Below are positions 3,393 to 43,970 of a stretch of DNA of 47,970 nt, piece after piece. The notes under the pieces were generated by a model. The model saw only the letters and a program-made list of their open reading frames with translations. It did no database searches and was not told where the DNA came from. The stretch spans positions 1 through 47,970 of IMG/VR virus record IMGVR_UViG_3300036668_000044, one strand, 5' to 3'. Numbering within the stretch: the stretch's first letter is position 1; each line of letters opens with the position of its first letter. Source of the DNA: a virus. The position numbers and the translations under genes were made by a program.

Positions 3393-4361
3393 ATGGGCAT
3401 AAAAGCAATCTTGCGAGCCAACCAGCAATCACTCCCAAAAGCTATAAGAACTATTTTTGCCTCTGAGTTTTCTGGGTCTTCCTTAAGCTCTGCTATCCTG
3501 GGACAGAGTAACAAAAGAAAGTGGTCCTTCCTTCGTGGAGTGTGGGGAATATCTTCTTCAAAACTAACAACTTCTGCCTCTTCTTCTACGTACCCCCTAA
3601 CCGTTGTTGACGCCCTCGTTCCCGATGTCAAGATAGAAATAAAAGATATGGGACAAGGTATTGGCGCAGCTCTATGGGTTACCGATGCAGGTAACTGGTG
3701 GTCAGTCTCATCAGAGCAAATCACGGAAAGTTGCAACTGTACGGGGTACACTTATTCCTGCGGTTGCTCCACATGCTCTGGCAGCTATTGTAATGGCTAC
3801 AATTGTGTCACTGGATACTATTGCCCACCAGCTTACTGTTGGCATAGCCAACCCTATTGCTCAAGCTGGAGCACACAGTACGGAAACTACTGCTCCTCTC
3901 GATACGCAAATGGTAACTGCTCGGGGTATACCCAGATATCCTGGCAAGATTGCGTATCGTACAGCGTCGACCAAGGCTGTTACGAGCCCGACTGTAGTAC
4001 TAGCTACGGATGTTGCTCGGCCACCTACTACTTCTCCTGTAATTGTGGCACCTGTAGCGGAACTTCTTGCGAGACCTGCTACCCACAGTACATTAGAGTC
4101 TTGCAATCTATAGCAAGTTCCGTGTCTGAGATAGTGAGCTGGAAAATCACGACTGTCTTACGCTCATTAAGGGTTAAGACTTCGAATAAAATGATAACTG
4201 TAGAGTCCTTTTCTGATGCCTCGCTGTATTCTCCAATTCGCACAGATTCTCATAACGCATCTACGGCTGTAGAGTCCACTAAATTTGGAATCGTGGTGTC
4301 CCCCTCCAGCTACAATGAGTCTAAAACTGTTTCCGAAATTAATATAGAAAGGGGTGTATAA
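3393..4361 (+). CDS. Cysteine-rich protein next to the tail fibre, unknown
   Basis: Protein of 322 residues in three parts. Residues 1-110 are a soluble domain ending in WVTDAGNWWSVSSEQ. Residues 114-229 carry 22 cysteines in 116 residues with many Tyr, Ser and Gly. Residues 230-322 are a Cys-free helical and beta tail. The Cys region starts with a CNC...CGCSTCSG pattern and ends with a similar CNCGTCSG pattern, so it may be an old duplication. No signal peptide is seen. The density suggests either a disulphide-locked virion domain or a multi-metal site. Placement directly after the tail fibre, with one base between, suggests a second adhesin or a fibre accessory. I do not recognise a family. 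Confidence 0.75.
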   Translation: MGIKAILRANQQSLPKAIRTIFASEFSGSSLSSAILGQSNKRKWSFLRGVWGISSSKLTTSASSSTYPLTVVDALVPDVKIEIKDMGQGIGAALWVTDAGNWWSVSSEQITESCNCTGYTYSCGCSTCSGSYCNGYNCVTGYYCPPAYCWHSQPYCSSWSTQYGNYCSSRYANGNCSGYTQISWQDCVSYSVDQGCYEPDCSTSYGCCSATYYFSCNCGTCSGTSCETCYPQYIRVLQSIASSVSEIVSWKITTVLRSLRVKTSNKMITVESFSDASLYSPIRTDSHNASTAVESTKFGIVVSPSSYNESKTVSEINIERGV

Positions 4362-4362
4362 T
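4355..4362 (+). promoter_or_regulatory. Leaderless promoter overlapping a stop codon (TGTATAAT)
   Basis: TATAAT at 4357-4362 ends exactly 6 bases before the ATG at 4369, so the first base of the mRNA should be the A of ATG. The TAA stop of the Cys-rich gene (4359-4361) lies inside the box. No ribosome site is possible in a leaderless mRNA and none is seen. Confidence 0.65.
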
Positions 4363-4368
4363 TAAAGT

Positions 4369-4599
4369 ATGACATTGCCATTACCAGACCTAGACCCCGT
4401 ACTCGAGCTGAAGCGTCCCCTTCACGAATTCTACCTAGCAGTCGTACACGAGGGTGTTGTTTATCAGGTTCTTAATTGTGAAGGCCAAGCCGCTGCGTTG
4501 TACATGTCAAACCCGACTTTTGTTCAAGTTGCCAATGGTGCCACAACCGTAGGTCAACTCTATGATGCTTCCACGGGTACATTCTCTAACGCAGAATAG
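4369..4599 (+). CDS. Small conserved phage protein, perhaps fibre-associated
   Basis: Protein of 76 residues beginning MTLPLPDLDPVLELKRPLHE and ending in FVQVANGATTVGQLYD followed by a short polar tail. This type of small protein, with an 'F-V-x-V' strand and a 'V-G-x-x-Y-D' strand near the C-terminus, often sits beside tail fibre genes in phages. No catalytic motif is present. The start is fixed by the -10 box 6 bases upstream. A fibre accessory or assembly role is inferred from position only. Confidence 0.6.
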   Translation: MTLPLPDLDPVLELKRPLHEFYLAVVHEGVVYQVLNCEGQAAALYMSNPTFVQVANGATTVGQLYDASTGTFSNAE

Positions 4600-4607
4600 T
4601 GTATACT
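4600..4607 (+). promoter_or_regulatory. -10 promoter (TGTATACT) with short leader
   Basis: TATACT at 4602-4607 follows the TAG stop (4597-4599) of the preceding gene. The ATG at 4626 is 18 bases downstream, so the leader would be about 12 bases, with only a weak GATCGG as possible ribosome site. Confidence 0.5.
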
Positions 4608-4625
4608 AGATAGAGATCGGACTCT

Positions 4626-6009: not shown

Positions 6010-6017
6010 TTTTAGTA

Positions 6018-6026
6018 TGCTAAAAT
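6018..6026 (+). promoter_or_regulatory. Leaderless extended -10 promoter (TGcTAAAAT)
   Basis: TAAAAT at 6021-6026 is preceded by TGc and ends 6 bases before the ATG at 6033, so the mRNA should begin at the start codon of the giant LamG-like gene. No ribosome site is present. Confidence 0.6.
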
Positions 6027-6032
6027 AGAGCT

Positions 6033-9000
6033 ATGTCTCAACCCTCGAATCTTTATGCAGAAAAGATATTTGCAGAACACCCCATAGCTCTCTGGGCCCT
6101 AGAAGAGCAGGTAGACTATCTATCATTAGTCTCTGATCCCCAAAGAGACTTCTCCCAATGGCAGCCAGTAAATTCTGAAGTCTTGTCACCAGATAGTTCA
6201 GCCCTAGATTATCCAGCTCCTTACCCACTTTCACCCTTGGGTCTAATGTCGTTAACGACAAGCACCTCTGGGTTCACGTCCTTTGGCGCAGCCTCCCCCC
6301 TGGCATATCCAGTTATGGTTGATTCGTTTTCTTCTACGAAGGACACCTTCTGCATAGGCATTCATCTTCTAGCGGTCAGTCAAACAGTGCTCTCTATTTC
6401 AGTAGGGTACACTTATGTAGACTCAGAGACAGGCCTGCCCGTTACCAAGGCAACGTCCTTTCCAGTATCGTCAAACACCAACTGGTCTTTCATATCAGAA
6501 ACCTTTTCCGTTTCAGAAATAAACTCAGAGTCGTTCTACCCCTCAATCTCTGTAGTCTCGGCCCACCCAGAATCAATTACAGGTCCAATAACTCACCTAG
6601 TCTATGTCAATGGTCTTACCGTAGGGCAAAACGCAGAAGAGTTCAACTACGGGTCATTAGGAATTTCTCCATCTGGTCAAGAAGAAAATATCTTTGGTGT
6701 AGAACCCAGCGACATCCTAGTTCCGTCCGATCAGTATGGGATAGTAGGGAGAAAAGCTTACTATGTCGTAAAAGGCGGAAACAATCTAGTCTCTCAGAAC
6801 TCAGGGATGCCTCTTGTTTATGGCGCCCAGAATGCTACAGTCATGACAAATTCTCAGGGAACCCCCAACCTACTGATACCAGGATATGGGTTTATGAATG
6901 ATTCAGGAAGAAACAAGGAGTACACATTTGAAATGTGGTTTAGACTAAACTCTTTTGCAACATCTTCCACTAGGATTTTTGGACCAGTAGCCTCAAATGA
7001 CGGGATCTACATAGATGGAGCATTCTTAAGGTTAAAGCTAGGAGGTTCTATAGCATCACACTATGTAGGCGATTCCTTCAGGCCTATGCTCGTAAACATT
7101 AAAACTCTAAAAGACTCAGCTTCCTTGCTTATTAACGGAGAGTCGGTAGCAACTATAACGTTTGATTCAGCCACCATTCCTCTACCAGCTCCTAAACTTG
7201 ATGGAAAGAATCAAGACTTTTTAGCATTCTATACTTCAGACGCTGTTCCTCAGATTGATGTAGACTGCGTGGCCATCTACTCATACTCAGTTCCTTCCTT
7301 AGTAGCTAAAAGGCGAATGGCCTACGGCCAAGCTGTAGAGTTTCCAGAAAACGTAAACACGGCATACAGTGGGACAACGGCGTACTTCGATTATAACTTT
7401 GCAGATTACACAAACAATTATTCATACCCAAATATCGGAAGATGGTATCAGGGAATTTCAGACAACCTTGTTTTTGACAATGATGTCCTCTCAACGCCAA
7501 GCTACGGGCTCCCACAGTTAGTTATGCAGGATGAGACAACCTATAAGAATTGGGTTTCTGAAAACTCTGATAATCAGGTGGTAGACGAAGACCTGTTCTT
7601 CAGCTTTAGCTCACCTGGCTACCTGTACTTTGAAAAACTTAGAATGCTTACTCAAGATACCAGGGCTATTTATATGGTTTTTGAAACCTCAGGATACTCA
7701 GAGAACAAGCAGGTATTGCTTAGAGTTGAAGACAACTTGACAACCAACAACTTCGAGGTATCTGTTACTGGATCGGATGTGTCTTACACCCTAAACTACC
7801 AAGGAGTAGAGACTTCTCTATATACGGAGTCAGACCTGATAGCAAACACAAAAGCCTTTGCAGGGATAGACATAGACGGTTTGGCAAAGTATTTCGGAAG
7901 AACTTTTACTGCATTCTTTGGTAACAAGTCACGCCTCAGTGTTTATGTTGGATCAGACAAAGACTTTGAGAGCCCATTCTCAGGAAAGATTTACTCTATA
8001 AATTTCTGTACCAACAAAAACTTTCAGAAGGTCTCAGCCTTTTTCCAAGATCCAGAGATCATTAGCACAGACTTTGTTGCTGACGCAGGAGATAACTACT
8101 TTGGCACTGACGCATCGACATGGTTCAGAACCTTTGACGGAGGCTTTGTAGATTCTTTTAGCCTAGATGGAGCAGCCAGCCACATAGCGAGTTATAGCCT
8201 AAGAGCTAAAAGCATTTTTGATAATTACTCTATAGACATCCTAGCAGATTCTTATTGGGAAGATTACATTCCCCTAAAGCATTTTGCACAGTATGTCACC
8301 AACAGTGACTCAGGATCTTATTATGACTTGGATTTTTTGCAGTTTAACGTGGGATACCCAGCAATTAGAAAGTTCTTAGCTGGAAGTTTTGATACGTCTA
8401 ATAGCTCCGTAAAGAGTTATATAACTTTTCAGTACTTAGCTACAGGAGCGACAGCGCAACCAGGATACTTTACAGAGACCACGAGCGCACCACAGAGCGG
8501 TATTGTAGAGCCTGGAGATAACTGGATGACAACAAGGTACGAGGTTGTCAATGGTTCGATCATCTACCTTCCAAAGAACATAGACTTTTTAGACATAGCT
8601 TTGGTGACAAGCTTAGAGATAGTTTCCCAGGGCATCAGTTTAGATAAGATAAAGATAAAAAGCCTAGAGTATGCATCTCAGGCTTTTAATGGAGACACCT
8701 CAAACCCTATTGGGACTCGGTTTGGTCTCCCTGTGTTTCCCTACAGGAAATACAACCTTTACTACGACTATAAGACTAGGAACCCATACAAGATATACAA
8801 GAGGAGCTCTCCTTATCTTTACTTAACGTCAGACAGCGGAATCAAAAAGGTGGGAGAGCAAGAGAGGGTCACAGACAGAGGGCTTTCAATACCAGTTAAC
8901 TTAAACCTATCAGAAAAGTATAGGGTGGTATCTATGCAAATGGCAATGAGGTTTGACGAAGAATCTTTCCCCGACAAGGTCAGAGTATTTGAGGTTGAAG

Positions 9001-9569
9001 CAAAGAACTCATATATTAAGTTTTACTTAGCCAAGGTTGGAACTTCAGGAAAGAGGGCAAAGCTGTATGCCGTCAATGCAGCAACAGGCGCAGTAAACGA
9101 CGGTGTCGCTTTTTATCTTAATGGAAAGCTTGTCCGTCAACCTGTGATCAATCTAGACCAATGGAATATGCTAGGAGTGACATTCTCTACAGTTCTCAAT
9201 TTTGACTCATACTCTGGGGGCATCAGAATCACTGGGCCTCTAATGGTTAATAATGTTTCTCAATACCAGTCTACAAACCTACAGGAAATTCAGGAGCAAG
9301 ACTTTAGGCAATGGTCTGAGGTCGCCACTAACCCAGGAGACATCTCAGGCCTCGGCTGGAAGTTTTGGAGTAATACCTATATTTGGAATGGGGTTCTCGT
9401 AAAGTCCTCCACAAATATCTATGGAATAACTCCTGACGATATATATAGGACTTACATAGGGACAAATAAGATAATCGTTGACGACAATCAATCAATATCT
9501 ATAGGAAATTACGAGTATTCAGCTTATGCTGACATCAAGTGGACCACATCTGTTGCCACTCCCGTATAA
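6033..9569 (+). CDS. Giant LamG/concanavalin-like minor virion protein
   Basis: Protein of 1178 residues. It opens with YAEKIFAEHPIALWALEE, a start shared by large phage LamG proteins. At least three jelly-roll-like segments can be seen: about 295-410 (YTFEMWFRLNSF ... LLINGESVATI), about 525-680 (YLYFEKLRML ... IYMVFETSG), and about 960-1065 (VSMQMAMRFDE ... FYLNGKLVRQ). Such domains bind glycans, so a role in host surface binding or virion decoration is likely. No signal peptide, protease or glycosidase motif is evident. It is transcribed from its own apparently leaderless promoter and lies upstream of the portal rather than at the tail-tip cluster, so a head-associated location is possible. 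Confidence 0.7.
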   Translation: MSQPSNLYAEKIFAEHPIALWALEEQVDYLSLVSDPQRDFSQWQPVNSEVLSPDSSALDYPAPYPLSPLGLMSLTTSTSGFTSFGAASPLAYPVMVDSFSSTKDTFCIGIHLLAVSQTVLSISVGYTYVDSETGLPVTKATSFPVSSNTNWSFISETFSVSEINSESFYPSISVVSAHPESITGPITHLVYVNGLTVGQNAEEFNYGSLGISPSGQEENIFGVEPSDILVPSDQYGIVGRKAYYVVKGGNNLVSQNSGMPLVYGAQNATVMTNSQGTPNLLIPGYGFMNDSGRNKEYTFEMWFRLNSFATSSTRIFGPVASNDGIYIDGAFLRLKLGGSIASHYVGDSFRPMLVNIKTLKDSASLLINGESVATITFDSATIPLPAPKLDGKNQDFLAFYTSDAVPQIDVDCVAIYSYSVPSLVAKRRMAYGQAVEFPENVNTAYSGTTAYFDYNFADYTNNYSYPNIGRWYQGISDNLVFDNDVLSTPSYGLPQLVMQDETTYKNWVSENSDNQVVDEDLFFSFSSPGYLYFEKLRMLTQDTRAIYMVFETSGYSENKQVLLRVEDNLTTNNFEVSVTGSDVSYTLNYQGVETSLYTESDLIANTKAFAGIDIDGLAKYFGRTFTAFFGNKSRLSVYVGSDKDFESPFSGKIYSINFCTNKNFQKVSAFFQDPEIISTDFVADAGDNYFGTDASTWFRTFDGGFVDSFSLDGAASHIASYSLRAKSIFDNYSIDILADSYWEDYIPLKHFAQYVTNSDSGSYYDLDFLQFNVGYPAIRKFLAGSFDTSNSSVKSYITFQYLATGATAQPGYFTETTSAPQSGIVEPGDNWMTTRYEVVNGSIIYLPKNIDFLDIALVTSLEIVSQGISLDKIKIKSLEYASQAFNGDTSNPIGTRFGLPVFPYRKYNLYYDYKTRNPYKIYKRSSPYLYLTSDSGIKKVGEQERVTDRGLSIPVNLNLSEKYRVVSMQMAMRFDEESFPDKVRVFEVEAKNSYIKFYLAKVGTSGKRAKLYAVNAATGAVNDGVAFYLNGKLVRQPVINLDQWNMLGVTFSTVLNFDSYSGGIRITGPLMVNNVSQYQSTNLQEIQEQDFRQWSEVATNPGDISGLGWKFWSNTYIWNGVLVKSSTNIYGITPDDIYRTYIGTNKIIVDDNQSISIGNYEYSAYADIKWTTSVATPV

Positions 9570-9580
9570 TGTGGTATACT
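9553..9580 (+). promoter_or_regulatory. Promoter with tandem -10 boxes; TGgTATACT is leaderless
   Basis: TATACT at 9575-9580 is preceded by TGg and lies 7 bases before the ATG at 9588. TTGCCA at 9553-9558 is a 5/6 match to -35, 16 bases upstream. A second box, TATAAT at 9565-9570, contains the TAA stop of the LamG-like gene. Either box could be used; the nearer one gives a leaderless mRNA. Confidence 0.6.
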
Positions 9581-9587
9581 ATTGTAC

Positions 9588-9956
9588 ATGGAAGAGAATA
9601 ATAACGGGCAAATTGGTAAATCAAAGATTACAGTCTTAAACAAGGACTACCCCTGGGGTATTTATTTTTGGAAGAAAGCAAACGGGAAGCCTTATACAGA
9701 CGGCCACGGAAGTGTTTTAAACATTCCTTCACACAAAGGTGACGTTCTTCAGCTTCAGAAGCTAACAAACGAAGCGACAGCCCTAGGCCATGGTGATGGA
9801 TCTTACGAGTTTATAGCAGGTGCTGGCCGAGTTTCAGAAGAAGAGTATTCCGAGCAGGTAGATCGAATGAAGCAAGGACTCCTTCCAAACCTTAATGACT
9901 TAGGAGCTGTCCAAGCAGCCAAAGACACCATATCTCTTTATGGAGATGAGGAATAA
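9588..9956 (+). CDS. Conserved small protein upstream of the portal
   Basis: Protein of 122 residues from ATG 9588 (an in-frame TTG at 9582 lies between the -10 box and this ATG and is unlikely to be used). It has a small beta-rich N-terminal domain with NKDYPWGIYFWKKANGKPYT and a C-terminal charged helix. Its stop overlaps the portal start (TAATG), so it is probably made in fixed ratio with the portal. It could be a head accessory protein; no catalytic motif is seen and I do not recognise a named family. Confidence 0.6.
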   Translation: MEENNNGQIGKSKITVLNKDYPWGIYFWKKANGKPYTDGHGSVLNIPSHKGDVLQLQKLTNEATALGHGDGSYEFIAGAGRVSEEEYSEQVDRMKQGLLPNLNDLGAVQAAKDTISLYGDEE

Positions 9957-11557: not shown

Positions 11558-11597
11558 TTTTTGCTAATATTACAAAAACGTAACAATTTAGCAAAAA
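11558..11597 (+). repeat. Perfect 10-base inverted repeat just upstream of the protease promoter
   Basis: TTTTTGCTAA at 11558-11567 pairs perfectly with TTAGCAAAAA at 11588-11597. The 20-base interior holds a further TTAC/GTAA pair around AAAAAC. A weak -35-like GTAACA (11580-11585) sits in the interior, 17 bases from the -10 box at 11603. It could be an operator, an mRNA 3' hairpin for the portal transcript, or both. The T-run is at the 5' side, so it is not a classical + strand terminator. Confidence 0.7.
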
Positions 11598-11602
11598 GGG
11601 TC

Positions 11603-11608
11603 TATAAT
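11603..11608 (+). promoter_or_regulatory. Near-leaderless promoter for the protease gene
   Basis: TATAAT at 11603-11608 lies 8 bases before the ATG at 11617. No Shine-Dalgarno sequence is present in that gap. A palindrome covers the region where the -35 would lie. Confidence 0.65.
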
Positions 11609-11616
11609 ATAGTAGT

Positions 11617-12984
11617 ATGACTATTTTAAAAGCACAGTGGGATTCAGACGGCGATAAGCTGCGACTTTCAATGCCCTTTTCCAAGGTTGATAAAGAGCGT
11701 AGAATTGTGTCTGGGTTTGCCACTTTAGACAACGTAGACAAGCAAGATGACATAGTCACTGCCGATGCCAGCCTCGACGCATTTAAAAGATTTCGTGGGA
11801 ATATTAGAGAGATGCACCAGCCACTGGCAGTTGGCAAGATGGTAGCTTTTAAAGAAGACAAATACTTTGACCCAGAAAGCAACAAGTTCTTTTCTGGAGT
11901 TTACGTTTCTGCTTACGTATCTAAGGGTGCACAAGACACTTGGGAAAAGGTTCTAGACGGAACCCTTTCTGGTTTTTCCATTGGTGGGAGAATGAACAAG
12001 TGGGACGACGCTTATGATGCAAAGATGGACAAGCCTATTCGTATTATTAAAGAGTACGACTTAGTAGAGCTCTCCTTGGTAGATACCCCAGCAAACCAGT
12101 TTGCAAACATTCTGTCCGTTGAAAAAGTAGACGGAGCTGACGTTCTTAAAGGCGATTTTGTAGACATCGAGATAGAAAATGTCTTCTACGATGAAGAGTC
12201 TGGACTCGTTGTTCTCTCAACAGAAGAGACAGCTCAAACCCCTATTGATGGTTCTGAAATGAAGAACATAGGTTTCGTTGAAAAGAATGATAACGAAAAA
12301 ACAGAAATGATGAAGTTCTTAGTTGATAGTGCTAAAGGCATTAATCTTTCTAAGATGACAAAGGAGGTAAGTCCTATGACTGACAAAATGAATGAGGTAG
12401 CAGAAGCTGCCGTAACAAAGTCAGATGAGGTCGCTCCAGAGGCAGATGCCCTAGTAGAAGCAGTAGCTACAGAAGATGTAGCAAAAGCAGACACACCAGA
12501 GGTTGCAAAGACAGAGAACATGGAAGAAGACGAAGAAAAGTCTTACTCAGATGATGAGGAAGAAAAGAAAAAGTCTGAAACTATGGATGAGGAAGAAGAA
12601 GAAATGAAGACTGCAAAGTCAGATTCTCCAGAAGCCACTGTTGAAGTAACTGAAGAGGTATCAAAATCAGATGATGTATCAAGTGGGATAGCAGAGCTAA
12701 CCTCTACAGTTACATCAGCCTTTAGCGATCTGACAGCAGTCGTAAAATCTCTAAATGAGGAGATTGCTGATCTGAAGAAATCACTAGGCCTAGCAACTGC
12801 AAAACTTGAGGATGCAGAAGTTGGTTTTAATGAGCTTGGGAAGAGGGTAGACGCAGTTGAGTCTGACACCGCTTTCCGCAAATCTGGCGATCTCGGCGAG
12901 ATTGTACAGGAAACTCAGATGGAAAAATCTGAGCAATCCCTATGGGGCGGTCGTTTCCTCAAAACTGCCGATTTATTTAAATGA
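11617..12984 (+). CDS. Prohead serine protease (XkdF/HK97-like) fused to scaffold
   Basis: Protein of 455 residues. Residues 1-170 are the capsid maturation protease: REMHQP with H67, the GFSIGG segment with S121 (or S118) as nucleophile, and YDLVELSLVDTPAN with E151, in the order known for the XkdF/HK97 prohead protease families. Residues from about 250 to 455 are very acidic and helical (EEDEEKSYSDDEEEKKKS, then a coiled-coil stretch LNEEIADLKKSLGLATAKLE), as expected of an internal scaffold removed by proteolysis. A strong internal ribosome site at 12361 suggests the scaffold is also made alone. The start is leaderless. Its stop overlaps an ATG at 12981, but the capsid gene starts later. 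Confidence 0.88.
   Translation: MTILKAQWDSDGDKLRLSMPFSKVDKERRIVSGFATLDNVDKQDDIVTADASLDAFKRFRGNIREMHQPLAVGKMVAFKEDKYFDPESNKFFSGVYVSAYVSKGAQDTWEKVLDGTLSGFSIGGRMNKWDDAYDAKMDKPIRIIKEYDLVELSLVDTPANQFANILSVEKVDGADVLKGDFVDIEIENVFYDEESGLVVLSTEETAQTPIDGSEMKNIGFVEKNDNEKTEMMKFLVDSAKGINLSKMTKEVSPMTDKMNEVAEAAVTKSDEVAPEADALVEAVATEDVAKADTPEVAKTENMEEDEEKSYSDDEEEKKKSETMDEEEEEMKTAKSDSPEATVEVTEEVSKSDDVSSGIAELTSTVTSAFSDLTAVVKSLNEEIADLKKSLGLATAKLEDAEVGFNELGKRVDAVESDTAFRKSGDLGEIVQETQMEKSEQSLWGGRFLKTADLFK
12361..12378 (+). promoter_or_regulatory. Internal ribosome binding site and in-frame ATG inside the protease gene
   Basis: AAGGAGGT at 12361-12368 is an 8-base match to the 16S anti-Shine-Dalgarno. AGGAGG ends 8 bases before ATG 12376. 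That ATG is in the protease frame (codon 254). A match this strong is rare in the window; the capsid gene has a comparable one. Confidence 0.8.
12376..12984 (+). CDS. Nested scaffold protein from internal start
   Basis: Predicted 202-residue product beginning MTDKMNEVAEAAVTKSD, in the same frame and with the same C-terminus as the protease gene. It is very acidic in its first half and coiled-coil-like in its second (about 105-180), typical of phage scaffolds that fill the procapsid and guide major capsid assembly. The arrangement copies lambda C/Nu3, where a scaffold is made from an internal in-frame start of the protease gene. Support here is the position of AAGGAGGT and the domain boundary it falls on. 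The alternative is that only the fusion is made and the ribosome site is coincidental, which seems unlikely given its quality. Confidence 0.72.
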   Translation: MTDKMNEVAEAAVTKSDEVAPEADALVEAVATEDVAKADTPEVAKTENMEEDEEKSYSDDEEEKKKSETMDEEEEEMKTAKSDSPEATVEVTEEVSKSDDVSSGIAELTSTVTSAFSDLTAVVKSLNEEIADLKKSLGLATAKLEDAEVGFNELGKRVDAVESDTAFRKSGDLGEIVQETQMEKSEQSLWGGRFLKTADLFK

Positions 12985-14244: not shown

Positions 14245-14733
14245 ATGTCAGATTTCAAAGAACACGCCCGTGACGGCGACGGAGACGGTCTAGTTCAGGA
14301 CGGTACAGAATGGGAACGTCCAGTGGCAGAAGAGGCAGAAGAGGCTCAAAAAGAGTCAGAAGCTGAACTGTTCGCAGAAGAGCTAGGAATTGAGGCTTCT
14401 GTTTCAGAAGCTGTAGAGGAAGAGTCAGTAATCAGTACTCCTACTTATAAGTCAGATAAGGGCTCAAAAAAGAAAGCTATGACTTCAGTAGCTGACGGAG
14501 TAATTGGAACCGACGTTCCGTCAAAGCCAAAAGCCAAGGTTACCAACCAGGTAAAGAACATTACAGACAAGACAGTAGCTATCTACTCTGGTCGTAATGT
14601 CCGCTGGGAAGGTGTTGGAAAGATCAACAAGGGTTACAACATCTTAGACCCTGAGACTGCAGATCTATGGATCGGTAAGCTGTCTCACGTTAGACTTGCT
14701 ACTCCAGAAGAGGTTTCTAGGGAACTAGGCTAA
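14245..14733 (+). CDS. Acidic head-associated protein with DGDGDG motif
   Basis: Protein of 162 residues in two parts. Residues 8-25 read DGDGDGLVQDGTEWERP, an EF-hand or dockerin-like Ca-binding pattern that I associate with small proteins near the capsid gene in actinobacteriophages. A long acidic Glu/Ala-rich helix follows (about 25-60). The C-terminal domain (about 95-162, VKNITDKTVAIYSGRNVRWEG) is a small beta-type fold. It is the first gene after the capsid terminator with a good ribosome site. It may be a capsid decoration or head completion protein. The function is inferred from position. Confidence 0.6.
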   Translation: MSDFKEHARDGDGDGLVQDGTEWERPVAEEAEEAQKESEAELFAEELGIEASVSEAVEEESVISTPTYKSDKGSKKKAMTSVADGVIGTDVPSKPKAKVTNQVKNITDKTVAIYSGRNVRWEGVGKINKGYNILDPETADLWIGKLSHVRLATPEEVSRELG

Positions 14734-18055: not shown

Positions 18056-18087
18056 CCCCCTAGTGTAATGCTAGGGGGTTTTCTTTT
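18056..18087 (+). terminator. Rho-independent terminator after the tail tube gene
   Basis: A perfect 8-base stem, CCCCCTAG (18056-18063) with CTAGGGGG (18071-18078), around a TGTAATG loop, followed by TTTTCTTTT. The T-tract runs straight into the next promoter. Confidence 0.95.
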
Positions 18088-18095
18088 GCTATAAT
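18087..18095 (+). promoter_or_regulatory. Leaderless extended -10 promoter (TGcTATAAT) for the long tail chaperone
   Basis: TATAAT at 18090-18095 preceded by TGc; 6 bases later the ATG at 18102. The -35 position falls within the terminator hairpin, so no -35 is available. The mRNA should begin at the A of ATG. Confidence 0.75.
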
Positions 18096-18101
18096 AGAAG
18101 C

Positions 18102-18794
18102 ATGGCAACTAGAGTATATAATTCAGGATACGTCTACACAGTAGACGGGGCAGAGATTTACGTAACCCCACTTAAAATAAAGTTTCTCCGTGACTTCATG
18201 GTTGAGTTCGCAGAGGTAAGGACTTCTAAGGGTTCTAACGATGATGTAGCTCTTAAGCATCTCATAGAGTGCATAAGAATATCTATGAGACAGTACTACC
18301 CCTCAATAAAGACATCCGAAGAAGTCGAGGACAACTTTGATGTTCAAACTCTTTACGAAATACTCAATTACGCAGCAGACATCAGTCTGAGTACAGAAAA
18401 GCCTGAGCCAATATCTGATCAGGCTAAAGAGTCAGAAGCAAGCTGGGAAACTTTTGACCTTGCCAGTCTAGAGGCAGAAGCTTTTCTTCTGGGAATTTGG
18501 AAAGACTATGCGGAGTTGGAGAGTTCTATTTCCTTGCCAGAACTAAGTAAGACCATAGAGATGAAGAGAGAGCTTGACTACGCAGAGAAGAAGTTCTTGG
18601 CAGCTATGCAGGGTGTTGACCTGGATGAGCAGACGGGTAAGAAAGAGGCTAACGCATGGGAAGAGATGAAGGCCAGAGTATTCTCACGTGGAAAGACCTC
18701 AGACCCTGACGATATTATAGCCTTACAGGGAAACAACGCTGCAAAGGCTGGTTTCGGTATAGGTATGGGCCTGTCGTATGAGAAGATCGGATAA
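18102..18794 (+). CDS. Long tail assembly chaperone (G-T equivalent in one ORF)
   Basis: Protein of 230 residues. Residues 15-97 form the 'G' half (VTPLKIKFLRDFMVEF ... LIECIRISMRQYYPSI). The second half (about 140-230, LPELSKTIEMKRELDYAEKK ... WEEMKARVFSRG, LQGNNAAKAGFGIGMGL) resembles the 'T' extension that other phages add by a programmed -1 frameshift. Here both halves are in one uninterrupted frame. It sits before the tape measure gene, the diagnostic location, and should keep the tape measure protein soluble and recruit tube subunits. It is leaderless, hence perhaps poorly expressed. The short paralogue follows at 18858. Confidence 0.75.
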   Translation: MATRVYNSGYVYTVDGAEIYVTPLKIKFLRDFMVEFAEVRTSKGSNDDVALKHLIECIRISMRQYYPSIKTSEEVEDNFDVQTLYEILNYAADISLSTEKPEPISDQAKESEASWETFDLASLEAEAFLLGIWKDYAELESSISLPELSKTIEMKRELDYAEKKFLAAMQGVDLDEQTGKKEANAWEEMKARVFSRGKTSDPDDIIALQGNNAAKAGFGIGMGLSYEKIG

Positions 18795-18857: not shown

Positions 18858-19172
18858 ATGGCTACAACAACTATCGGGCAAACCGAGATCGAACTAATGG
18901 ATGGAACTAAGCTAACCGTTCGTCCCCTAAAGGTTTCACTGCTACGCTCATTTTTGAAGAAGTTTGGAGAAATTTCTGAGGTTGCTACAGACAATGACAA
19001 GTCAATGGACATTCTTATGGAGTGTGTGCAGATTGCAATGCGTCAGTACAAGCCAGAAATTGCGGATGATCTAAAGGCTCTTGAAGAGAACCTAGATCTT
19101 CCAACTGTTTACAAGGTGGTAGAAGCAGCATCAGGCATAGTCCTAGATGATGCCAATGTTCTTGCAACATAA
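18858..19172 (+). CDS. Short tail assembly chaperone (G-only paralogue)
   Basis: Protein of 104 residues that aligns with the first half of the preceding gene: shared V-x-P-L-K-[IV]-x-x-L-R-x-F near residue 25, and E-C-x-x-x-x-M-R-Q-Y-x-P near residue 60, with roughly one third identity by eye over about 80 residues. It lacks the T-like C-terminal half. It has its own promoter, a hairpin-capped leader and a proper ribosome site, all suggesting it is made in excess over the long form. It ends 24 bases before the tape measure gene. Together the pair probably replaces the frameshift-made G and GT pair. Confidence 0.75.
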   Translation: MATTTIGQTEIELMDGTKLTVRPLKVSLLRSFLKKFGEISEVATDNDKSMDILMECVQIAMRQYKPEIADDLKALEENLDLPTVYKVVEAASGIVLDDANVLAT

Positions 19173-19195: not shown

Positions 19196-22100
19196 ATGGC
19201 TGATTTCGAAGCTAAATTCGGCGTAAACATAGATACAACGGCAGCTCTTGCATCGATTAAGCAACTTCAGTCTCAAATATCAACCTTTCATCGGCAGCTT
19301 GCAAAGGGGTCGGCAGTCAACACTGCTAGCCAACAGAACCTACAACGTAACTTAATATCCGACATAAACTCATCTGGTAAGTTTAATGCCAGTATGCAAA
19401 GAGTGCATTCCACCACAGAGAACTTCACGAATGCTCTTGAGAAAAACAAGCTGTCTATGGGACAGTACTTTAGATACGCTGGTGGGGCATCTAAAACCTT
19501 TGGTCGTAAATTCATTAGTGAGTTTAATACCATAAACAAGGTAGCACGAGAACGTGTAAAAACCCTGCAGACCCAATACATTGCCATGGGTCGAGACGCT
19601 AATGGGGCACTACAATCTATAGCAGTCAGACCTTTGAGTCTGGACATGAACAATCTCGCCACTAAAACAGCTATAGCAGCCCAGAAGCAACAAATCTTTA
19701 ACCAACTGCTTAGGCAGGGGTCTACCAACCTACTGAACTTCGGAAAGAATACTCAGTGGGCTGGTAGACAGCTTATGGTTGGTTTTACTATTCCTCTAGC
19801 AATCTTCGGATCCATGGCTGGTAAAACATTCATGAAGGTCGAAGAAGAAGCTATTAGATTTAGGCGTGTCTACGGAGAGCTCTTCACCCCACCAGAAGAA
19901 GCCAACGCCATGATTGACCAGCTTAAAGAGTTGGCCTCAGAGTTTACCCAGTATGGAGTATCCCTAGAATCAACCCTGGCCCTAGCCTCAGACGTAGCTG
20001 CCATGGGTAAGACAGGGGCAGACCTAATGGCCCAAGTATCAGAAGCTACAAGGCTGTCCGTGCTGGGATCTGTGGATCAAGCAAAAGCCCTAGAGGCTAC
20101 GATCTCTGTAACAAACGCTTTCGGAATCTCGGCAGAAGACTTAGCAGGAAAGATAGACTTTCTTAACGCTGTAGAGAACCAGACAGTGACGGCCATTGAA
20201 GACTTAACCATAGCTATTCCAAAAGCTGGTCCAGTTATCCAACAGCTTGGTGGAAGCGTAGAAGACCTAGCCTACTTCTTGACCGCCATGAAAGAGGGTG
20301 GCATCAATGCCTCAGAAGGAGCTAACGCTCTAAAGTCGGGTCTTGCCAGAATAATTAACCCAACCATTAAAGCATCAGAAATGATGAAGGGTCTGGGAAT
20401 TAACATTAATGGTATTGTTGAGGGCAACGCAGGAGACATAAAGACAACCGTAACAGAGCTTGCTTTTGCGCTAGATGAATTGCAGCCTTTGCAAAGATCG
20501 AGAGCTATTGAAGAACTTTTTGGAAAGTTTCAGTTCGCAAGAATCTCAACCCTATTCCAGAACATAACAAAAGAGGGTAGCCAGGCAGCAAGGGTTCTAG
20601 ATTTAACTAGAGCTTCAACTCAAGAGCTTGCAAACCTATCTTCCAAAGAGCTTGGAGCTGTTTCAGAGTCAACCACCTTCGCATTCAAGAAGGCTTTTGA
20701 GGACTTGAGGATTGCCATTGCTCCTATTGGAGAGCAATTCATCAAAGCAGCCACACCTATTATTCAGTTTGCTACTAAACTTCTTAGCCAATTCGATAAG
20801 ATGGGTGACGGAGCAAAGAACTTTGTCGTAATCTTAACAGCTGTCCTGGGACTAATAGCCCCCGTAGCTCTGATGACGTTTGGTCTTCTTGCTAACGGCG
20901 CAGCAAACATTCTTAAAGGTTTTGCAGCTCTAAGAACTATGTTCCTAAGAACAGCTCAGGACACCAGCGTACTGGGAAGCCAAACTCAGTACCTGACACA
21001 GGAGCAACTGATAGCCAACGCAGCATCAGCATCTCTTGAGCAGTCACACATGAGGCTAACTCAGCAGTTCACATCCGAGACTACAGCTGTATCCCTATTG
21101 ACAGCAGCATACGAAAAAGCAGCTCTCGCTGCATCAAGGCTAACAGCAGTTCGTCCCATGCCAACATCCATCGGAAAAGGTGCGGTCAAAGGATACGCTT
21201 CTGGTGGAATAATCTCAGGTGAGGGAACAGGGACTTCAGACTCTATCTTGGCGCAGGTCTCTAATGGAGAAGCTATCATACCAGCCAAGGTAGTAAGCAA
21301 GAATCCAGGATTTTTTGCTAAGCTTATTTCAGGAGGAATCCCAGGATTTGCTAAAGGCGGAATTCTCGGAGGTAAGGTCAACGTCGGAGGCAAAGAGTAT
21401 GGTGTCCCAGATGGAAGAAGTTCAGGAGCCATGCAGTCCAGAATACAAGGTCTCGCCGATGCAGGGACATCCCTTGACTCCCTGACCTCTGTTATGGATA
21501 AGCTAGAGGCCCAATCAAAATTAACCGCAGCAGCCCTTAAAGCAGAGGTCAGAGCCAGAGGACTGTCTCCTAAAGGTGGCCCAAGCGAGGTACAGAGAGC
21601 TCACCTTACCCTGCCTACAAAAAATGCAGACGGATCTATGGGTCTTTCTGGTCTAACCAGAGAAATGTCCAGAGAGCAAAACATAGCACTTAGGGCTGGG
21701 CAGAATAAGGATCAGTTCTTAAAAGAGTATTCTTCAAGAAAAGGTGGCCTCACCGCTGCAGGAGAAGCTGGCATGCGACAGACGGGAGCCCTAGGACCCA
21801 GGGAATCTATGTCTTCGGATATGGTAGCTACCATGCAACAGCTTGACGACGAAATAGGAAAGTTAGCCCACGAGCTCTCTGTAGACGGTTTAGTATCTGA
21901 CGCCGAGCTAGCAAAAGCTGCAGACATCGTAATCAGAAAAGCAGAGTCTAAGTCAGGGAATACGGGAACTGCAGGCAGTGCTCTGAGAGAAAGACAAAAA
22001 GCCCAAGTAGCTACTAGGTCAGCAATATCATCAAAGATGAATGCGGAAAACATTAGGTCTGGAAAAACTTCTCTTCGAGGTAATGGTGTCACTCTCGTTG

Positions 22101-31521: not shown

Positions 31522-32670
31522 ATGATTACTAATACTGGAAAAACTATACTTGCCAAATATCTTATTGGCCAAGCACCTGCCTATGCCTCGTATATTGCAG
31601 TAGGTTGCGGACCAAACGCACTCTTGAAAACAGACGTAATCCCCTCAGAAGAATTTGCAGTAAAGACAAGCTTAGACTTTGAGATGTTCAGAGTTCCCAT
31701 AATCTCTAGGGGTTACGTACAGGATGATGGAGTATCGAAGATAGTTTTGACGGCAGAGCTACCGACCTCTGACAGGTACGAAATCACCGAGCTTGGAGTT
31801 TATTCAGCAGGCTCAAACCCTTCAGCAGGAGCTTACGACTCCAGGATGGTCTATGCCTTTAGCAGCAACGAAAGTTGGGAACAGCACACAGGAGAAACCA
31901 TCTCTCAAATACCAAACATTTTGGTATCTCTAGGAGACGAAGTAACAACTTATAACATTGTACAAACTGCTAATGCATTCTTTACTAACGCAGACAATAA
32001 GACAATGTCTAACACTGCCAGGATAGGTAGAAACGAGACCCCCAGGTACTTAAACAGTACTCTTTTTATAGCAGGAAACTCCTCCACTTTGACCTATGAT
32101 GGAACACACCTGACACCAACCAGCGGTAGCCATGTACACATTACAGGTATTTCTGCAGACTACAATAAGAACTCTCCAGAGGATGAGCTAAGGCTAGTAT
32201 TTTCTGTAGTCAACAGAGAGGCTAACTCAGCTCTCATTCCCGACTCAGTAAAGATTATAGTTGAGTTCACCTCTGCAGACACTTCACTAGAATCGGGAGA
32301 CTGGGCCAGGATGGAAGTTGTCGTGGATGACATCTCTTCCTCGGATGCCTCAACCCAAAAGCATGACTTTACAAATGACAGATATGTTAACTATACTATT
32401 CAGCTAAATGACCTGAGTACCAGTGAAGGCTTTTCCTGGCAGAATGTATCGACAGTTAAAGTCTACGCTTCCGCAGAGGTGGGTGGGGTAGTCACAAATG
32501 ATTTCTACATCGCTCTTGACGGCCTTAGGCTTGAGAACGTAACAAGCTTTAATCCTCTATATGGACTTTCTGGATACTCCGTGATTCAGACTTTGGACGC
32601 TACGCCAATTACAAAATTTGCCAATACGGCAAACTTGGTAGAGTTTAGGTTTGGCCTGGGGGTAGAATAA
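31522..32670 (+). CDS. Tail fibre / tip protein with conserved N-terminal domain
   Basis: Protein of 382 residues. The start MITNTGKTILAKYLIGQAPA then YASYIAVGCGPNA is a frequent N-terminal attachment domain of fibre-like proteins in actinophage-type siphoviruses, and RYEITELGVYSAG (about 89-101) belongs to it. Residues 185-350 look like a carbohydrate-binding beta sandwich (LRLVFSVVNRE ... FYIALDGLRLENV). The gene before ends in ATATACTAG, so a TATACT box (31506-31511) lies 10 bases from this ATG, but AGGAA also fits a ribosome site. Likely a host-contact protein. Confidence 0.65.
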   Translation: MITNTGKTILAKYLIGQAPAYASYIAVGCGPNALLKTDVIPSEEFAVKTSLDFEMFRVPIISRGYVQDDGVSKIVLTAELPTSDRYEITELGVYSAGSNPSAGAYDSRMVYAFSSNESWEQHTGETISQIPNILVSLGDEVTTYNIVQTANAFFTNADNKTMSNTARIGRNETPRYLNSTLFIAGNSSTLTYDGTHLTPTSGSHVHITGISADYNKNSPEDELRLVFSVVNREANSALIPDSVKIIVEFTSADTSLESGDWARMEVVVDDISSSDASTQKHDFTNDRYVNYTIQLNDLSTSEGFSWQNVSTVKVYASAEVGGVVTNDFYIALDGLRLENVTSFNPLYGLSGYSVIQTLDATPITKFANTANLVEFRFGLGVE

Positions 32671-33112: not shown

Positions 33113-33121
33113 TGCTATAAT
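33113..33121 (+). promoter_or_regulatory. Near-leaderless extended -10 promoter (TGcTATAAT)
   Basis: TATAAT at 33116-33121 preceded by TGc, 8 bases before ATG 33130. No ribosome site is seen in the gap. Confidence 0.7.
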
Positions 33122-33129
33122 TAACTACT

Positions 33130-33573
33130 ATGGCTAGAATACCAACACCCACAAGAGGACAACCTCTCGATGTATCGTACATCTATCAGATCGTTGAAGC
33201 AATCAACGAACTTGCTAACCTGGCGTCTTCATCAACTTATAAGTATGCCTCCATAGATACTACCTCTGGAGCCCAGAACATGCTTATGACGGAAACCCGT
33301 CTTACCGCAGGTGAGATTGCGGTATATCCAACCTTGACGTCTATCACAGCAAAGACTTCCAAAGCGTTTTCTTATTCATTCAAGGGCGAGTATAAGTATC
33401 CTCCAATCGTAACAGCTACGCCTGTTCTGATCGAGGGCACATCGGCTGGTCAAGACATGTCTGTTATCATAACTAGTATTACAACTTCAAGAGTGGACGG
33501 TAGCGTTACCTTCAACACTGGTGGTACAATCGCAGCTAAGGTTGATATCATTGCCGTGGGCGTACCCCTATAA
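33130..33573 (+). CDS. Small fibre-like tail protein
   Basis: Protein of 147 residues. Residues 1-40 form a helical attachment segment (GQPLDVSYIYQIVEAINELA). The rest is beta-rich (FSYSFKGEYKYPPIVTATPV, GSVTFNTGGTIAAKVDIIAV). The architecture resembles short phage fibre tips. It is the last structural gene of the block and has its own apparently leaderless promoter. Confidence 0.55.
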   Translation: MARIPTPTRGQPLDVSYIYQIVEAINELANLASSSTYKYASIDTTSGAQNMLMTETRLTAGEIAVYPTLTSITAKTSKAFSYSFKGEYKYPPIVTATPVLIEGTSAGQDMSVIITSITTSRVDGSVTFNTGGTIAAKVDIIAVGVPL

Positions 33574-33577
33574 AACT

Positions 33578-34117
33578 ATGAATCGTAAAGGTAGTATTGA
33601 GGACGAGGAGTATAACTCTAAGCCAGCTATTCTTGGTAGCAAGAGAGTTTGGTTTCTTAACGGGTACCTAGTAAGATCTCACCACATAAACAAGTCAAAC
33701 GGAATTATGTCCGTGTATAACATAATCGAAGATAGAATTGAAAGCTGCCTAATAGGAGACTTTAAGAAGAATCGAAAGAAAGCTTTTACTGTAGGGCAGA
33801 CCGCAGAGCTAGTTAACCGACACAAAAAGTACATGCCATCTCTAGTTAAGAGAGGCGTCATCCCTCCAGCAACTGGATCACAAAAGGGGGGAGGCACTGC
33901 TTGGCAAGTAAGAAGTTATTATTCAGAAACCCAAGTCCACGAGATTCGTGATATACTTGCATCCTACCACATCGGCCAGCCACGCAAAGATGGGTTGATC
34001 ACAAATAACATGACACCCAATAAGCAAGAGTTGACAAGACGAATGGGCGATGGTATACTGACATATACAAGAACAGAAGATGGGAGATTCATTCCAGTTT
34101 GGTCTGAATCAATTTAG
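33578..34117 (+). CDS. Helix-turn-helix (MerR-like) putative regulator
   Basis: Protein of 179 residues from ATG 33578; the frame is open 57 bases further upstream but that part overlaps the previous gene. Residues about 62-115 read FTVGQTAELVNRHKKYMPSL then VKRGVIPPATG and a WQVRSYYSETQVHEIRDIL helix, typical of a MerR/excisionase-type winged helix that reads DNA. It lies exactly between the structural and replication modules, so it may control the switch between them. TATAAA sits only 3 bases from the ATG, too close for a normal leaderless start. DNA binding is likely; the target is unknown. Confidence 0.65.
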   Translation: MNRKGSIEDEEYNSKPAILGSKRVWFLNGYLVRSHHINKSNGIMSVYNIIEDRIESCLIGDFKKNRKKAFTVGQTAELVNRHKKYMPSLVKRGVIPPATGSQKGGGTAWQVRSYYSETQVHEIRDILASYHIGQPRKDGLITNNMTPNKQELTRRMGDGILTYTRTEDGRFIPVWSESI

Positions 34118-35862: not shown

Positions 35863-35868
35863 TATAAT
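35863..35868 (+). promoter_or_regulatory. Leaderless promoter (TATAAT, 6-base gap)
   Basis: TATAAT immediately follows the helicase stop codon (TAG 35860-35862) and ends 6 bases before ATG 35875. No TGn extension and no -35 are seen. Confidence 0.6.
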
Positions 35869-35874
35869 AGATGC

Positions 35875-36201
35875 ATGGATTACTTGCATCACAAGCCGAT
35901 AAAGAAGTTCTCGTTAGAGGGAACAATTCACGACGATGCCTCTTTCATAAGATTAAAAATAGAATACGTAAACTTACTAAAAAGCGAGATGAGACTTTCT
36001 GGCTATGTACAAAGAATAGATATTGACCCAGACTTCACAATAGGGTATAATGAAAAAACAGAGTACTACAACTTCGAACTAACACTATATGGAATATACA
36101 CAGGAAAGAAAAAGAGTGAATGGATAGAGTCAGTAAACGCAACACAGGTCATCTATACTCCGAAGAGCAAATCAAACGAGTTCTCACAGGAGCAGGCCTA
36201 A
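35875..36201 (+). CDS. Hypothetical protein between helicase and primase
   Basis: Protein of 108 residues, mixed alpha/beta, with FIRLKIEYVNLLKSEMRLSG and YNFELTLYGIYTGKKKSEW. Its last 82 bases overlap the primase gene in another frame, an unusually long overlap for this genome. It has an apparently leaderless promoter. No family is recognised; a primosome accessory is possible by location. Confidence 0.55.
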   Translation: MDYLHHKPIKKFSLEGTIHDDASFIRLKIEYVNLLKSEMRLSGYVQRIDIDPDFTIGYNEKTEYYNFELTLYGIYTGKKKSEWIESVNATQVIYTPKSKSNEFSQEQA

Positions 36202-37064: not shown

Positions 37065-37094
37065 AAACAACTGAAAAACTAACAGGAGAAAACC

Positions 37095-37748: not shown

Positions 37749-37762
37749 TTAACTAACATTCT

Positions 37763-37793: not shown

Positions 37794-37809
37794 GTCTCTC
37801 TTCAGCCCC

Positions 37810-37838: not shown

Positions 37839-37868
37839 CTTAATAATACAAAACATAGAAGGAAATCA

Positions 37869-42147: not shown

Positions 42148-42316
42148 CGGTAAGTATGAGATCTTTGCTGGTGAGTTTCCATGCCATACATGCAAGGTAA
42201 TAGTCAAAAGCCTTAGGCTTTATGTAGATACAAAAGAAACTACCTGGCTGTGCCCTGAGAGGCACTTGTCTTCTGTGTCTTTTGCTCAAAAGAAAAGCAG
42301 GAAAAACTATGAGTGA
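42140..42316 (+). CDS. Small zinc-ribbon protein (TTG start)
   Basis: A 58-residue frame from TTG 42140 that overlaps the recombinase stop by 8 bases. It reads as a zinc ribbon: CHTCK (residues 15-19) and LCPERH (residues 37-42) separated by a VKSLRLYVD strand pair. It ends in a basic tail (KKSRKNYE). A purine-rich GGGGGAAG stretch lies 5 bases before the TTG. It overlaps the next gene by 8 bases. It could bind nucleic acid or a polymerase. No named family is recognised, but the Cys-His spacing, basic tail and tight coupling make it a probable gene. Confidence 0.65.
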   Translation: MANGKYEIFAGEFPCHTCKVIVKSLRLYVDTKETTWLCPERHLSSVSFAQKKSRKNYE

Positions 42317-42596
42317 ACGAGGAGAGTCAAAGCGCATTGGTGCTAAGCAGCACAAGAACTCAGGACGAAACATGGTCAAGGGTGATGCTAGCTGGGAAAA
42401 CTTCGTTGTTGACTTTAAGGAGTATCCTAAAGGCATAACCGTAAACAAAGACATCTGGGCCAAAGCTGTAACAGACGCTATGACACAGGGCAAAGATCCA
42501 GCTCTCATCCTTGTGCTAGGAGAAGGAAACCAGAAGGTCAGGCTTGCAGTTATTGAGTTTGAGATCTTAGACCAGCTAGTTAAGGGTGTATACTAA
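42309..42596 (+). CDS. Putative PD-(D/E)XK-type nuclease or resolvase-like protein
   Basis: Protein of 95 residues from ATG 42309, with GCAGGA 6 bases upstream; an in-frame TTG at 42282 is less likely. The sequence ERGESKRIGAKQHKNSGRN then MVKGDASWENFVVDFKEYPK has the order Glu / Gly-Asp / (V)D-x-K seen in small phage nucleases and Holliday-junction resolvases of the PD-(D/E)XK fold. A final strand set (PALILVLGEGNQKVRLAVIEF) completes a compact alpha/beta fold. The family match is suggestive only. Its stop overlaps the next promoter. Confidence 0.5.
   Translation: MSERGESKRIGAKQHKNSGRNMVKGDASWENFVVDFKEYPKGITVNKDIWAKAVTDAMTQGKDPALILVLGEGNQKVRLAVIEFEILDQLVKGVY
42589..42594 (+). promoter_or_regulatory. 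Leaderless promoter (TATACT) overlapping a stop codon
   Basis: TATACT ends 6 bases before ATG 42601 and overlaps the TAA stop (42594-42596) of the nuclease-like gene. Confidence 0.6.
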
Positions 42597-42600
42597 TAGT

Positions 42601-43389
42601 ATGAATAAATTTACTGCCCCTGGTATGTGGGATTACCTAACAGATATGAGCAAGTTCAATGAAACCTTGCCAATCTACGTGGAAAAGCCATTCTCTGAAG
42701 ATCAGATAGACAGAGTCAAAGCTATCATAGAAAACCTTCTTAACGTAAAACCAGAACATTACCTTGTTCCAGGTGGACAAGAAGAATACCGTGGTAAAAA
42801 CTGGTATGACCCAAAGAAAGTTTCTCACATGTCCAGAGAGATGGTAGAGTTCTTAGCCCCAATGGACCTCGAATTAACCATGGACAAGTATGCCAAGCAC
42901 CTACACCAAGATGAAATTAAGCTATGCCACTACAGTTACATAGACTATAACCCAGTTCATGGAGATGGAAAATATGCTCCCTCCCTACCTCCACATATAG
43001 ACAACACTGAGACACTGGTCACGTTTAACTACATGCTAGACGGAAATATTGATTGGGAGATTTATATTGATGGCAAGTCCTACGATCTAAAGGTCGGAGA
43101 TGCCATAATGTTCAGTGCAGTGAATCAGCCTCACTTTAGGCCAAAGCGTAACTGGAAAGACGGGGAGTTCGTAAAGATCCTTACTTTTGATTACTCTCCC
43201 CTAACAGATTGGAGATTCTTAAAACAAGATTTCCCTCTTGACCCCTTAAAGTTTCAGGGTAGGATTGCAGCATACAACAAAGCTCTTTCCAATGAGCCCA
43301 AGATGCAAAGCGCATGGTCAATGTATAATCAGTTAGGCACGGCCCTGGGTTATGACACAAACACTCACGGTTCCTTGGATAGTGTATAA
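42601..43389 (+). CDS. 2OG-Fe(II) oxygenase-like protein, first of a tandem pair
   Basis: Protein of 262 residues. The candidate iron ligands are PHID (H132, D134) and H178 in QPHFRPKR, with R180 or R183 as 2-oxoglutarate ligand; between them lie beta strands TLVTFNYMLDG, WEIYIDGKSYDLKVGDAIMF as in the jelly-roll core of this superfamily. The H-[FW]-R-P-K motif is shared with the next gene, so the two are distant paralogues. The C-terminal 55 residues are an added helical tail. No substrate motif can be read. The start is set by the -10 box 6 bases upstream. Confidence 0.7.
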   Translation: MNKFTAPGMWDYLTDMSKFNETLPIYVEKPFSEDQIDRVKAIIENLLNVKPEHYLVPGGQEEYRGKNWYDPKKVSHMSREMVEFLAPMDLELTMDKYAKHLHQDEIKLCHYSYIDYNPVHGDGKYAPSLPPHIDNTETLVTFNYMLDGNIDWEIYIDGKSYDLKVGDAIMFSAVNQPHFRPKRNWKDGEFVKILTFDYSPLTDWRFLKQDFPLDPLKFQGRIAAYNKALSNEPKMQSAWSMYNQLGTALGYDTNTHGSLDSV

Positions 43390-43390
43390 T
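43385..43390 (+). promoter_or_regulatory. Leaderless promoter (TATAAT) overlapping a stop codon
   Basis: TATAAT ends 7 bases before ATG 43398 and contains the TAA stop (43387-43389) of the preceding oxygenase. No -35 or TGn is seen. Confidence 0.6.
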
Positions 43391-43397
43391 AGTTATT

Positions 43398-43970
43398 ATG
43401 ACTATTCAGCAAAATCTAATTATATCTAACGTCTTGTCCGATGCTGAGATCCATTCGGTATATGAGCACATAAATAACACACCAGTAGATAAGACACAGG
43501 TGATAAACCATATAGGTCACAGAGCATACCATAGCTGGTTGCCCCAGAGCGTAGTAGACAAGCTTACATCAGTAGCCCAATCCACTACAAAAAGAGGCCT
43601 TGAGCTTAGAGAGCTTTCTTTCGCCAGGTATAGTCACGAGCTATCTCCTAGACTTCAGCCACATCTAGATTCAGGGTTTAAGGAGCAAAGGCTAACCTTT
43701 GATCTTCAGATTGGAGGTAACGTTCTCTGGCCAATCTCAGTAGAAGGCTCGGAGTTTACTTTAGTAAATAACCAAGCCTTAACTTTTGCAGGAACCCACC
43801 AAATTCACTGGAGGCCCAAGACTACTTTTCTAGAGGGGCAATACCTGGACATGGTATTTTGTCATTATTCGTTTGTCGATGATGAGCCAAACTCTCTAGG
43901 AGATGAGCACTACTTGCCATTGAGAGCAAGGTGTGATAAACTAATACAGATATACAATAATGAAAGTTAA
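43398..43970 (+). CDS. 2OG-Fe(II) oxygenase-like protein, second of a tandem pair
   Basis: Protein of 190 residues, near the minimal size for the fold. PHLD supplies H89 and D91; IHWRPK supplies H137 and R139. The strands FDLQIGGNVLWPISVEGSEF and LVNNQALTFAGTHQ lie between, as expected. It resembles the preceding protein in the H-x-D to H-[FW]-R-P-K layout but lacks its C-terminal tail. It differs clearly from the third oxygenase-like gene at 841. It is followed 3 bases later by another small gene. Catalytic residues look complete; the substrate is unknown. Confidence 0.7.
   Translation: MTIQQNLIISNVLSDAEIHSVYEHINNTPVDKTQVINHIGHRAYHSWLPQSVVDKLTSVAQSTTKRGLELRELSFARYSHELSPRLQPHLDSGFKEQRLTFDLQIGGNVLWPISVEGSEFTLVNNQALTFAGTHQIHWRPKTTFLEGQYLDMVFCHYSFVDDEPNSLGDEHYLPLRARCDKLIQIYNNES

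Follow-up and report, generated by a model that had tools for sequence, protein, structure and literature searches.

Conserved -10-like boxes adjoining start codons mark probable leaderless genes in an uncultured tailed phage

Nine hexamers of the -10 type (TATAAT, TATACT or TAAAAT) end 6 to 8 nucleotides (nt) before an ATG in IMG/VR record IMGVR_UViG_3300036668_000044 (the window hereafter, meaning the whole stretch analysed: 47,970 bases, 44% G+C, one record of an uncultured virus, with its genes on the + strand), and the question raised by this arrangement is whether the genes concerned are expressed from leaderless mRNA. An earlier note on this DNA had placed the hexamers at gaps of 6, 6, 7, 8, 6, 8, 6, 6 and 7 nt, and all nine positions and gaps were found to be exact (Table 1). 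The adjacent-box layout is real, far above chance and conserved in relatives. The boxes are very probably the -10 elements of host sigma-A-type promoters which abut the start codons, have no conserved -35 element and give leaderless mRNA.

Frequency and conservation of the adjacent boxes

Curated gene starts whose upstream region was long enough (47 in all) were searched for any of the three hexamers at a gap of 6-8 nt, and 9 had one. The earlier note had asked for a shuffled-sequence control and for counts in relatives, and both agree with its claim. Dinucleotide shuffles of the 60-nt upstream regions (2000 rounds) gave 0.33 boxes on average and never more than 3. Among the other ATGs of the window, 2/797 on the + strand and 1/613 on the - strand had a box at this distance (Fisher p=1e-10). 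The three hexamers had been picked by eye after inspection of the window and, therefore, independent tests on relatives weigh more. After removal of near-identical contigs and duplicate upstream sequences from the IMG/VR relatives, protein alignments fixed the position of 656 orthologous starts; 76 of them carried a box at gap 6-8, against 9 of 4500 internal in-frame ATGs (p=2e-59). The box counts by gap in these starts were 44 (gap 6), 17 (7), 15 (8), 49 (9) and 12 (10), with 1-9 at any other distance and a background level of about 3-5. Annotation-free counts of box-ATG pairs over all relatives (39% G+C) were dropped in favour of such gene-anchored counts, the background of in-frame coding TAAAAT being too high.

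In the near-identical 111-kb contig G001 (IMGVR_UViG_3300037346_000220), the layout was found in 23/132 genes, 14 of them at exactly gap 6, and at 0/468 internal ATGs. Two more distant contigs had it in 17/139 and 7/111 genes, Rhodococcus phage Grayson in 5/53, LukeCage in 3/44, Moab in 3/45 and Vibrio phage Ceto in 0/48. When TATAAT-N6/7-ATG was compared with TATAAT-N14/15-ATG on both strands, the counts were 15 vs 2 in the 111-kb contig, 5 vs 0 in both LukeCage and Moab, 3 vs 0 in Jay2Jay, 14 vs 14 in T4 and 4 vs 5 in SPO1. The post hoc choice of hexamers and the 44% G+C of the window are in favour of a chance origin, in which AT-rich upstream regions would simply yield TATAAT-like hexamers near starts, and the individual sites 42601, 43398 and 4369 could still be fortuitous; for the set as a whole, however, chance is excluded by the shuffles, the internal-ATG controls and the out-of-sample relatives, leaving this explanation a negligible probability.

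Table 1. Box-ATG sites and other features of the window
Feature	Coordinates	Strand	Gap (nt)	ATG	Gene or remark
TATAAT	4357..4371	+	6	4369	76 aa, function unassigned; box overlaps upstream stop (gene end 4361)
TGC-TAAAAT, extended -10	6018..6035	+	6	6033	1178 aa
TATAATGTGG-TATACT, double box	9565..9590	+	7	9588	small gene ahead of portal
TATAAT	11603..11619	+	8	11617	head maturation protease, phrog_9427
Intrinsic terminator hairpin and T tract	18056..18078	+			ends 11 nt before the -10 box of the 18102 gene
TGC-TATAAT, extended -10	18087..18104	+	6	18102	tail-assembly-chaperone-like, phrog_10504
TGC-TATAAT, extended -10	33113..33132	+	8	33130	
TATAAT	35863..35877	+	6	35875	phrog_17515, between helicase and primase; box directly after helicase stop
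TATACT	42589..42603	+	6	42601	
TATAAT	43385..43400	+	7	43398	box over upstream stop
Portal	9956				PHROG match
Head maturation protease	11617				PHROG match
Virion structural protein	12981				PHROG match (major head match)
Tail proteins					PHROG match
DnaB-like helicase	34642				PHROG match
Primase	36120				PHROG match
SSB	37095				PHROG match
DNA polymerase	37869				PHROG match
Recombinase	41140				PHROG match
Holliday junction resolvase	42282				PHROG match
Cas4-like exonuclease	44248				PHROG match
Terminase	47181				PHROG match

Six of the nine sites are firm and conserved in diverged relatives, and 4369, 42601 and 43398 are to be taken as single-genome predictions, because homology does or does not begin at the proposed methionine and 4369 is without diverged relatives. 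Orthologue alignments began at residue 1-3 in 42/65 cases for 6033, 76/76 for 11617, 72/84 for 18102, 21/21 for 33130 and 15/17 for 35875. The orthologues of 6033 keep TRTGnTAAAATAGAC, at gap 6-9 in most, and a few have a longer gap and a Shine-Dalgarno (SD) sequence; this leaderless-type gene (6033-9569) is about 40% identical in relatives and has no PHROG match. A gap-7 box precedes 9588 in 13/13 precisely mapped orthologues, and the double box TATARTRTGGTATACT is conserved at 33/50 loci of the small gene before the portal. The two -10-like boxes at 9565-9580, TATAAT and TATACT, lie 10 nt apart and are kept in most relatives. For 11617 the box was present in 56/57 mapped orthologues (gap 4-10, mode 9). 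On the upstream side, AAAAAGGG adjoins the protease box (11590-11617) and is conserved in relatives; it is possibly promoter context, or an SD sequence for longer transcripts. At 18102, gap 6 was found in 33/36 box-bearing relatives, and the order terminator, extended -10, ATG recurs among relatives: a hairpin with T tract precedes the box in 15/42 of them by a crude scan, and in more by eye. In relatives of 33130 the box stands at gap 6 in four and at gap 9 in two, and six are leadered with an SD sequence. A box at gap 5-7 was present in 9/9 nonredundant orthologues of 35875. No orthologue of 4369 was found beyond near-identical contigs, the start at 42601 has no support from diverged relatives, and the diverged orthologues of 43398 have an SD sequence and no box, most relatives leaving its start unsupported.

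Two further observations concern these genes. A GTG-start open reading frame (ORF) at 33521-34117 shares 53 nt, in a different frame, with the 3' end of the gene at 33130-33573; the possibility of one broken gene was considered, and a single ORF spanning both was found in no relative, so that the gene is not obviously broken. The neighbouring genes 42586-43389 and 43398-43970 each have a weak phrog_2954 match, and the label "ferrochelatase" is doubtful.

Some of the listed ATGs might not be true starts, other codons with ordinary signals being used while the boxes drive leadered mRNAs. This explanation draws on 42601 and 43398, for which homology in most relatives begins elsewhere, and on alternative codons: 9588 lies within an ORF able to open at TTG 9582, and 42601 within one able to open at GTG 42586, which overlaps the box. 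It is nevertheless very improbable for the set, since most orthologue alignments begin at residue 1-3 for the five genes counted above and the annotated starts of cultured phages coincide with box-defined ATGs. Gene starts of the Stanwilliamsviridae phages LukeCage, Moab, Jay2Jay, Coruscant and Wakanda were annotated independently by others. In all five, the annotated ATG of the head-to-tail adaptor gene follows TATAAT or TATACT at a gap of exactly 6 nt, and the gene that comes after a minor tail protein is preceded by TATAAT at a gap of 6-7 nt; the two genes start at 31748 and 45933 in Coruscant and at 31069 and 45258 in Jay2Jay. For both genes the box is kept although the sequences around it have diverged and the proteins of different subfamilies are only 26-42% identical. 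The adaptor homologue of the window (14738) and those of its relatives are SD-led or boxless; therefore genes appear to shift between leaderless-type and SD-led initiation, as reported for bacteria. LukeCage gene 47 (L129:4240-4261) has, 15 nt ahead of its annotated ATG, another ATG in frame with TATGAT before it at gap 6; the annotation of this gene probably begins too far downstream.

Promoter character and the route to translation

Alignment of 134 box-bearing starts revealed G in 72% at two bases, T in 67% at three bases and T in 63% at five bases before the box, a pattern which is, on base composition, that of the TRTGn element of extended -10 promoters. TG occupied the extended -10 position in 81/134 and the start codon was ATG in 131/134. 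No conserved -35 hexamer was seen in base counts upstream of the 134 boxes, and a scan for suitably spaced TTGACA gave no clear excess over shuffles. Among the relatives' orthologous starts, an SD match of at least 4 bases was found in 16% of the box-bearing and 75% of the other starts. The absence of an SD sequence from the gaps, as claimed in the earlier note, is true, yet near automatic for 6-8 nt; the nine genes also have no match of at least 4 bases at ordinary spacing, and most other genes of the window have one. Within the tail-assembly-chaperone paralogous family, 31 starts had a box and no SD sequence, and 28 an SD sequence and no box. The adjacent phrog_10504 paralogues at 18102-18794 and 18858-19172, the first leaderless-type and the second SD-led, offer a natural internal comparison.

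In the proposed mechanism, the boxes, most of them extended -10 elements, would set the transcription start on the A of the ATG or 1-3 nt ahead of it. If the discriminator has its usual length of 6 nt, +1 would fall on this A for a gap of 6 and 1-3 nt to the left of it for gaps of 8-9. The SD-free mRNA would then be translated by the leaderless route, which is routine for actinobacterial ribosomes. It is simplest to assume that the RNA polymerase is that of the host and that host initiation is left unmodified, because neither a phage-encoded sigma-70 region 2 nor an IF3_C match was found in five large relatives or in LukeCage. For the phage, the outcome would be gene-level promoters within short intergenic gaps (4-71 nt for those holding the window's boxes), some over the upstream stop or right behind a terminator. 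Head-to-head leaderless-type pairs were also seen in the 111-kb contig G001 (L133-L138 joined; 14540-14605 and 22050-22125) and in G004 (L139-L144 joined; 42630-42705 and 51900-51960). Their -10 boxes stand back to back with start codons about 40-55 bp apart, and the mRNAs of both genes would be leaderless, arising from promoters that overlap.

Several points weigh against this mechanism. The starts at 4369, 35875, 42601 and 43398 lie only 4-12 nt behind an upstream stop and could be translated by coupling from read-through mRNA as well. Four of the nine genes have a weak SD-like AAGG or AAAG(G), with 4-5-base matches 15-17 nt off and upstream of the box, usable on longer transcripts only. The protease and 6033 families are centred on gap 8-9, and a very short leader may remain. 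Promoter activity, 70S translation and the use of host sigma-A are deduced from sequence, as are the transcription start sites and the actinobacterial host, and our literature search found no transcriptome of this phage or its family.

The same facts could be read as real promoters whose closeness to the ATG is incidental to a compact genome, the genes being mostly translated from read-through mRNA by coupling or weak SD sequences. Several boxes do lie in gaps of 4-28 nt, two of them over the upstream stop, and the weak AAGG/AAAG(G) motifs could serve. But incidental crowding predicts broad gaps, whereas gap 6 dominates (14/23 in the 111-kb contig) and gaps of 11-25 are at background; SD sequences are depleted exactly where a box adjoins the start, and 11617 and 18102 keep the adjacency despite 59-71 nt of room. 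We give this explanation only a slight chance and retain promoters that abut the start codon and yield leaderless mRNA.

The proposal of probable leaderless genes is thus strongly supported by position, extended -10, SD loss and conservation. With gaps of 8-10, 11617 and many 6033 orthologues are likelier to have a leader of 1-4 nt than to lack one. The reliance of the phage on 70S leaderless initiation, as stated in the earlier note, goes too far, since about 81% of the window genes are without the layout and most of these have an SD sequence or a stop-start overlap. That leaderless initiation is required during infection (e.g. by a ribosome or initiation-factor state changed by phage or host), so that the SD-free fusions at essential genes for capsid, tail and replication were kept over deep divergence in Stanwilliamsviridae and uncultured relatives, is in our opinion unlikely.

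Family and host

Genes of the window follow the order seen in the Streptomyces phages LukeCage and Moab, with homologous and syntenic structural and replication genes. As in the five Stanwilliamsviridae phages named above, a small gene, portal, protease and capsid are followed by tail genes, helicase, primase, SSB, DnaE and RecA, and leaderless-type starts occur on both sides. The window differs from them in its protease, which is about 42% and at most about 43% identical to theirs, and in the set of leaderless-type genes. The record may be a fragment. WhiB genes were found in 5/5 large relatives and in LukeCage; in the control set Corynebacterium alone had one. To our knowledge, WhiB is restricted to Actinobacteria and their phages, and we infer actinobacterial hosts because of the WhiB genes in the relatives and LukeCage. 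A host search over genome contigs found no contig encoding a relative.

These data suggest that, beyond single cases, leaderless genes are a systematic and conserved feature of how a phage lineage expresses its genes. The layout may also provide a cheap rule for fixing gene starts and locating promoters in actinophages, in which gene callers that depend on SD sequences can fail. Direct mapping of start sites is feasible, because cultured Streptomyces phages share the layout.

Comparison with known leaderless systems

In bacteria, TA-like signals about 12 bp upstream mark leaderless genes, which are commonest in Actinobacteria and Deinococcus-Thermus and make up more than 20% of actinobacterial genes, and genes change initiation mode between orthologues (PMC3160421). 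The sites described here resemble such TA-led genes, and the -10 regions adjoining ORFs (PMC12340547), in their TANNNT-type box with its first T about 12 bp upstream, the absence of an SD sequence, a share of about one fifth of genes and an initiation mode that varies between orthologues. They differ in belonging to a tailed phage and in having full TATAAT with an extended -10, features which may be expected with a G+C content of 44%. The layout had been called unusual for such a phage; this view is not supported, because 9/47 and 23/132 (17-19%) come close to the share expected from an actinobacterial host, and phage precedents exist.

In the Thermus phage phiYS40, most middle and late mRNAs are leaderless according to the account of Sevostyanova 2007 given in PMC3594737. 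The likeness lies in a phage with leaderless mRNA for many genes; in phiYS40 this use is described there as experimentally established, with shifts in host IF2/IF3, whereas no evidence of initiation-factor manipulation was found for the window phage. Used as a positive control, phiYS40 had no enrichment of TATAAT at gap 6/7 before ATG (4 vs 6 at gap 14/15), presumably owing to differing promoters; a missing TATAAT pattern is therefore no proof against leaderless mRNA.

Among actinophages, one leaderless gene is predicted in Adephagia (PMC11373665), and the leaderless SigA promoters PL1, PR2 and PL2 are predicted in cluster O mycobacteriophages, with +1 on the initial base of the start codon (PMC4351075). 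The latter are alike in having promoters at the start codon, a divergent pair included, and differ in number, with three per genome against about 23 in 111 kb here, the present set having comparative conservation. Comparable comparative depth was not found in the literature searched, whose coverage of subscription journals is limited. The finding is thus a well-supported further instance of the known leaderless layout, with added comparative depth.

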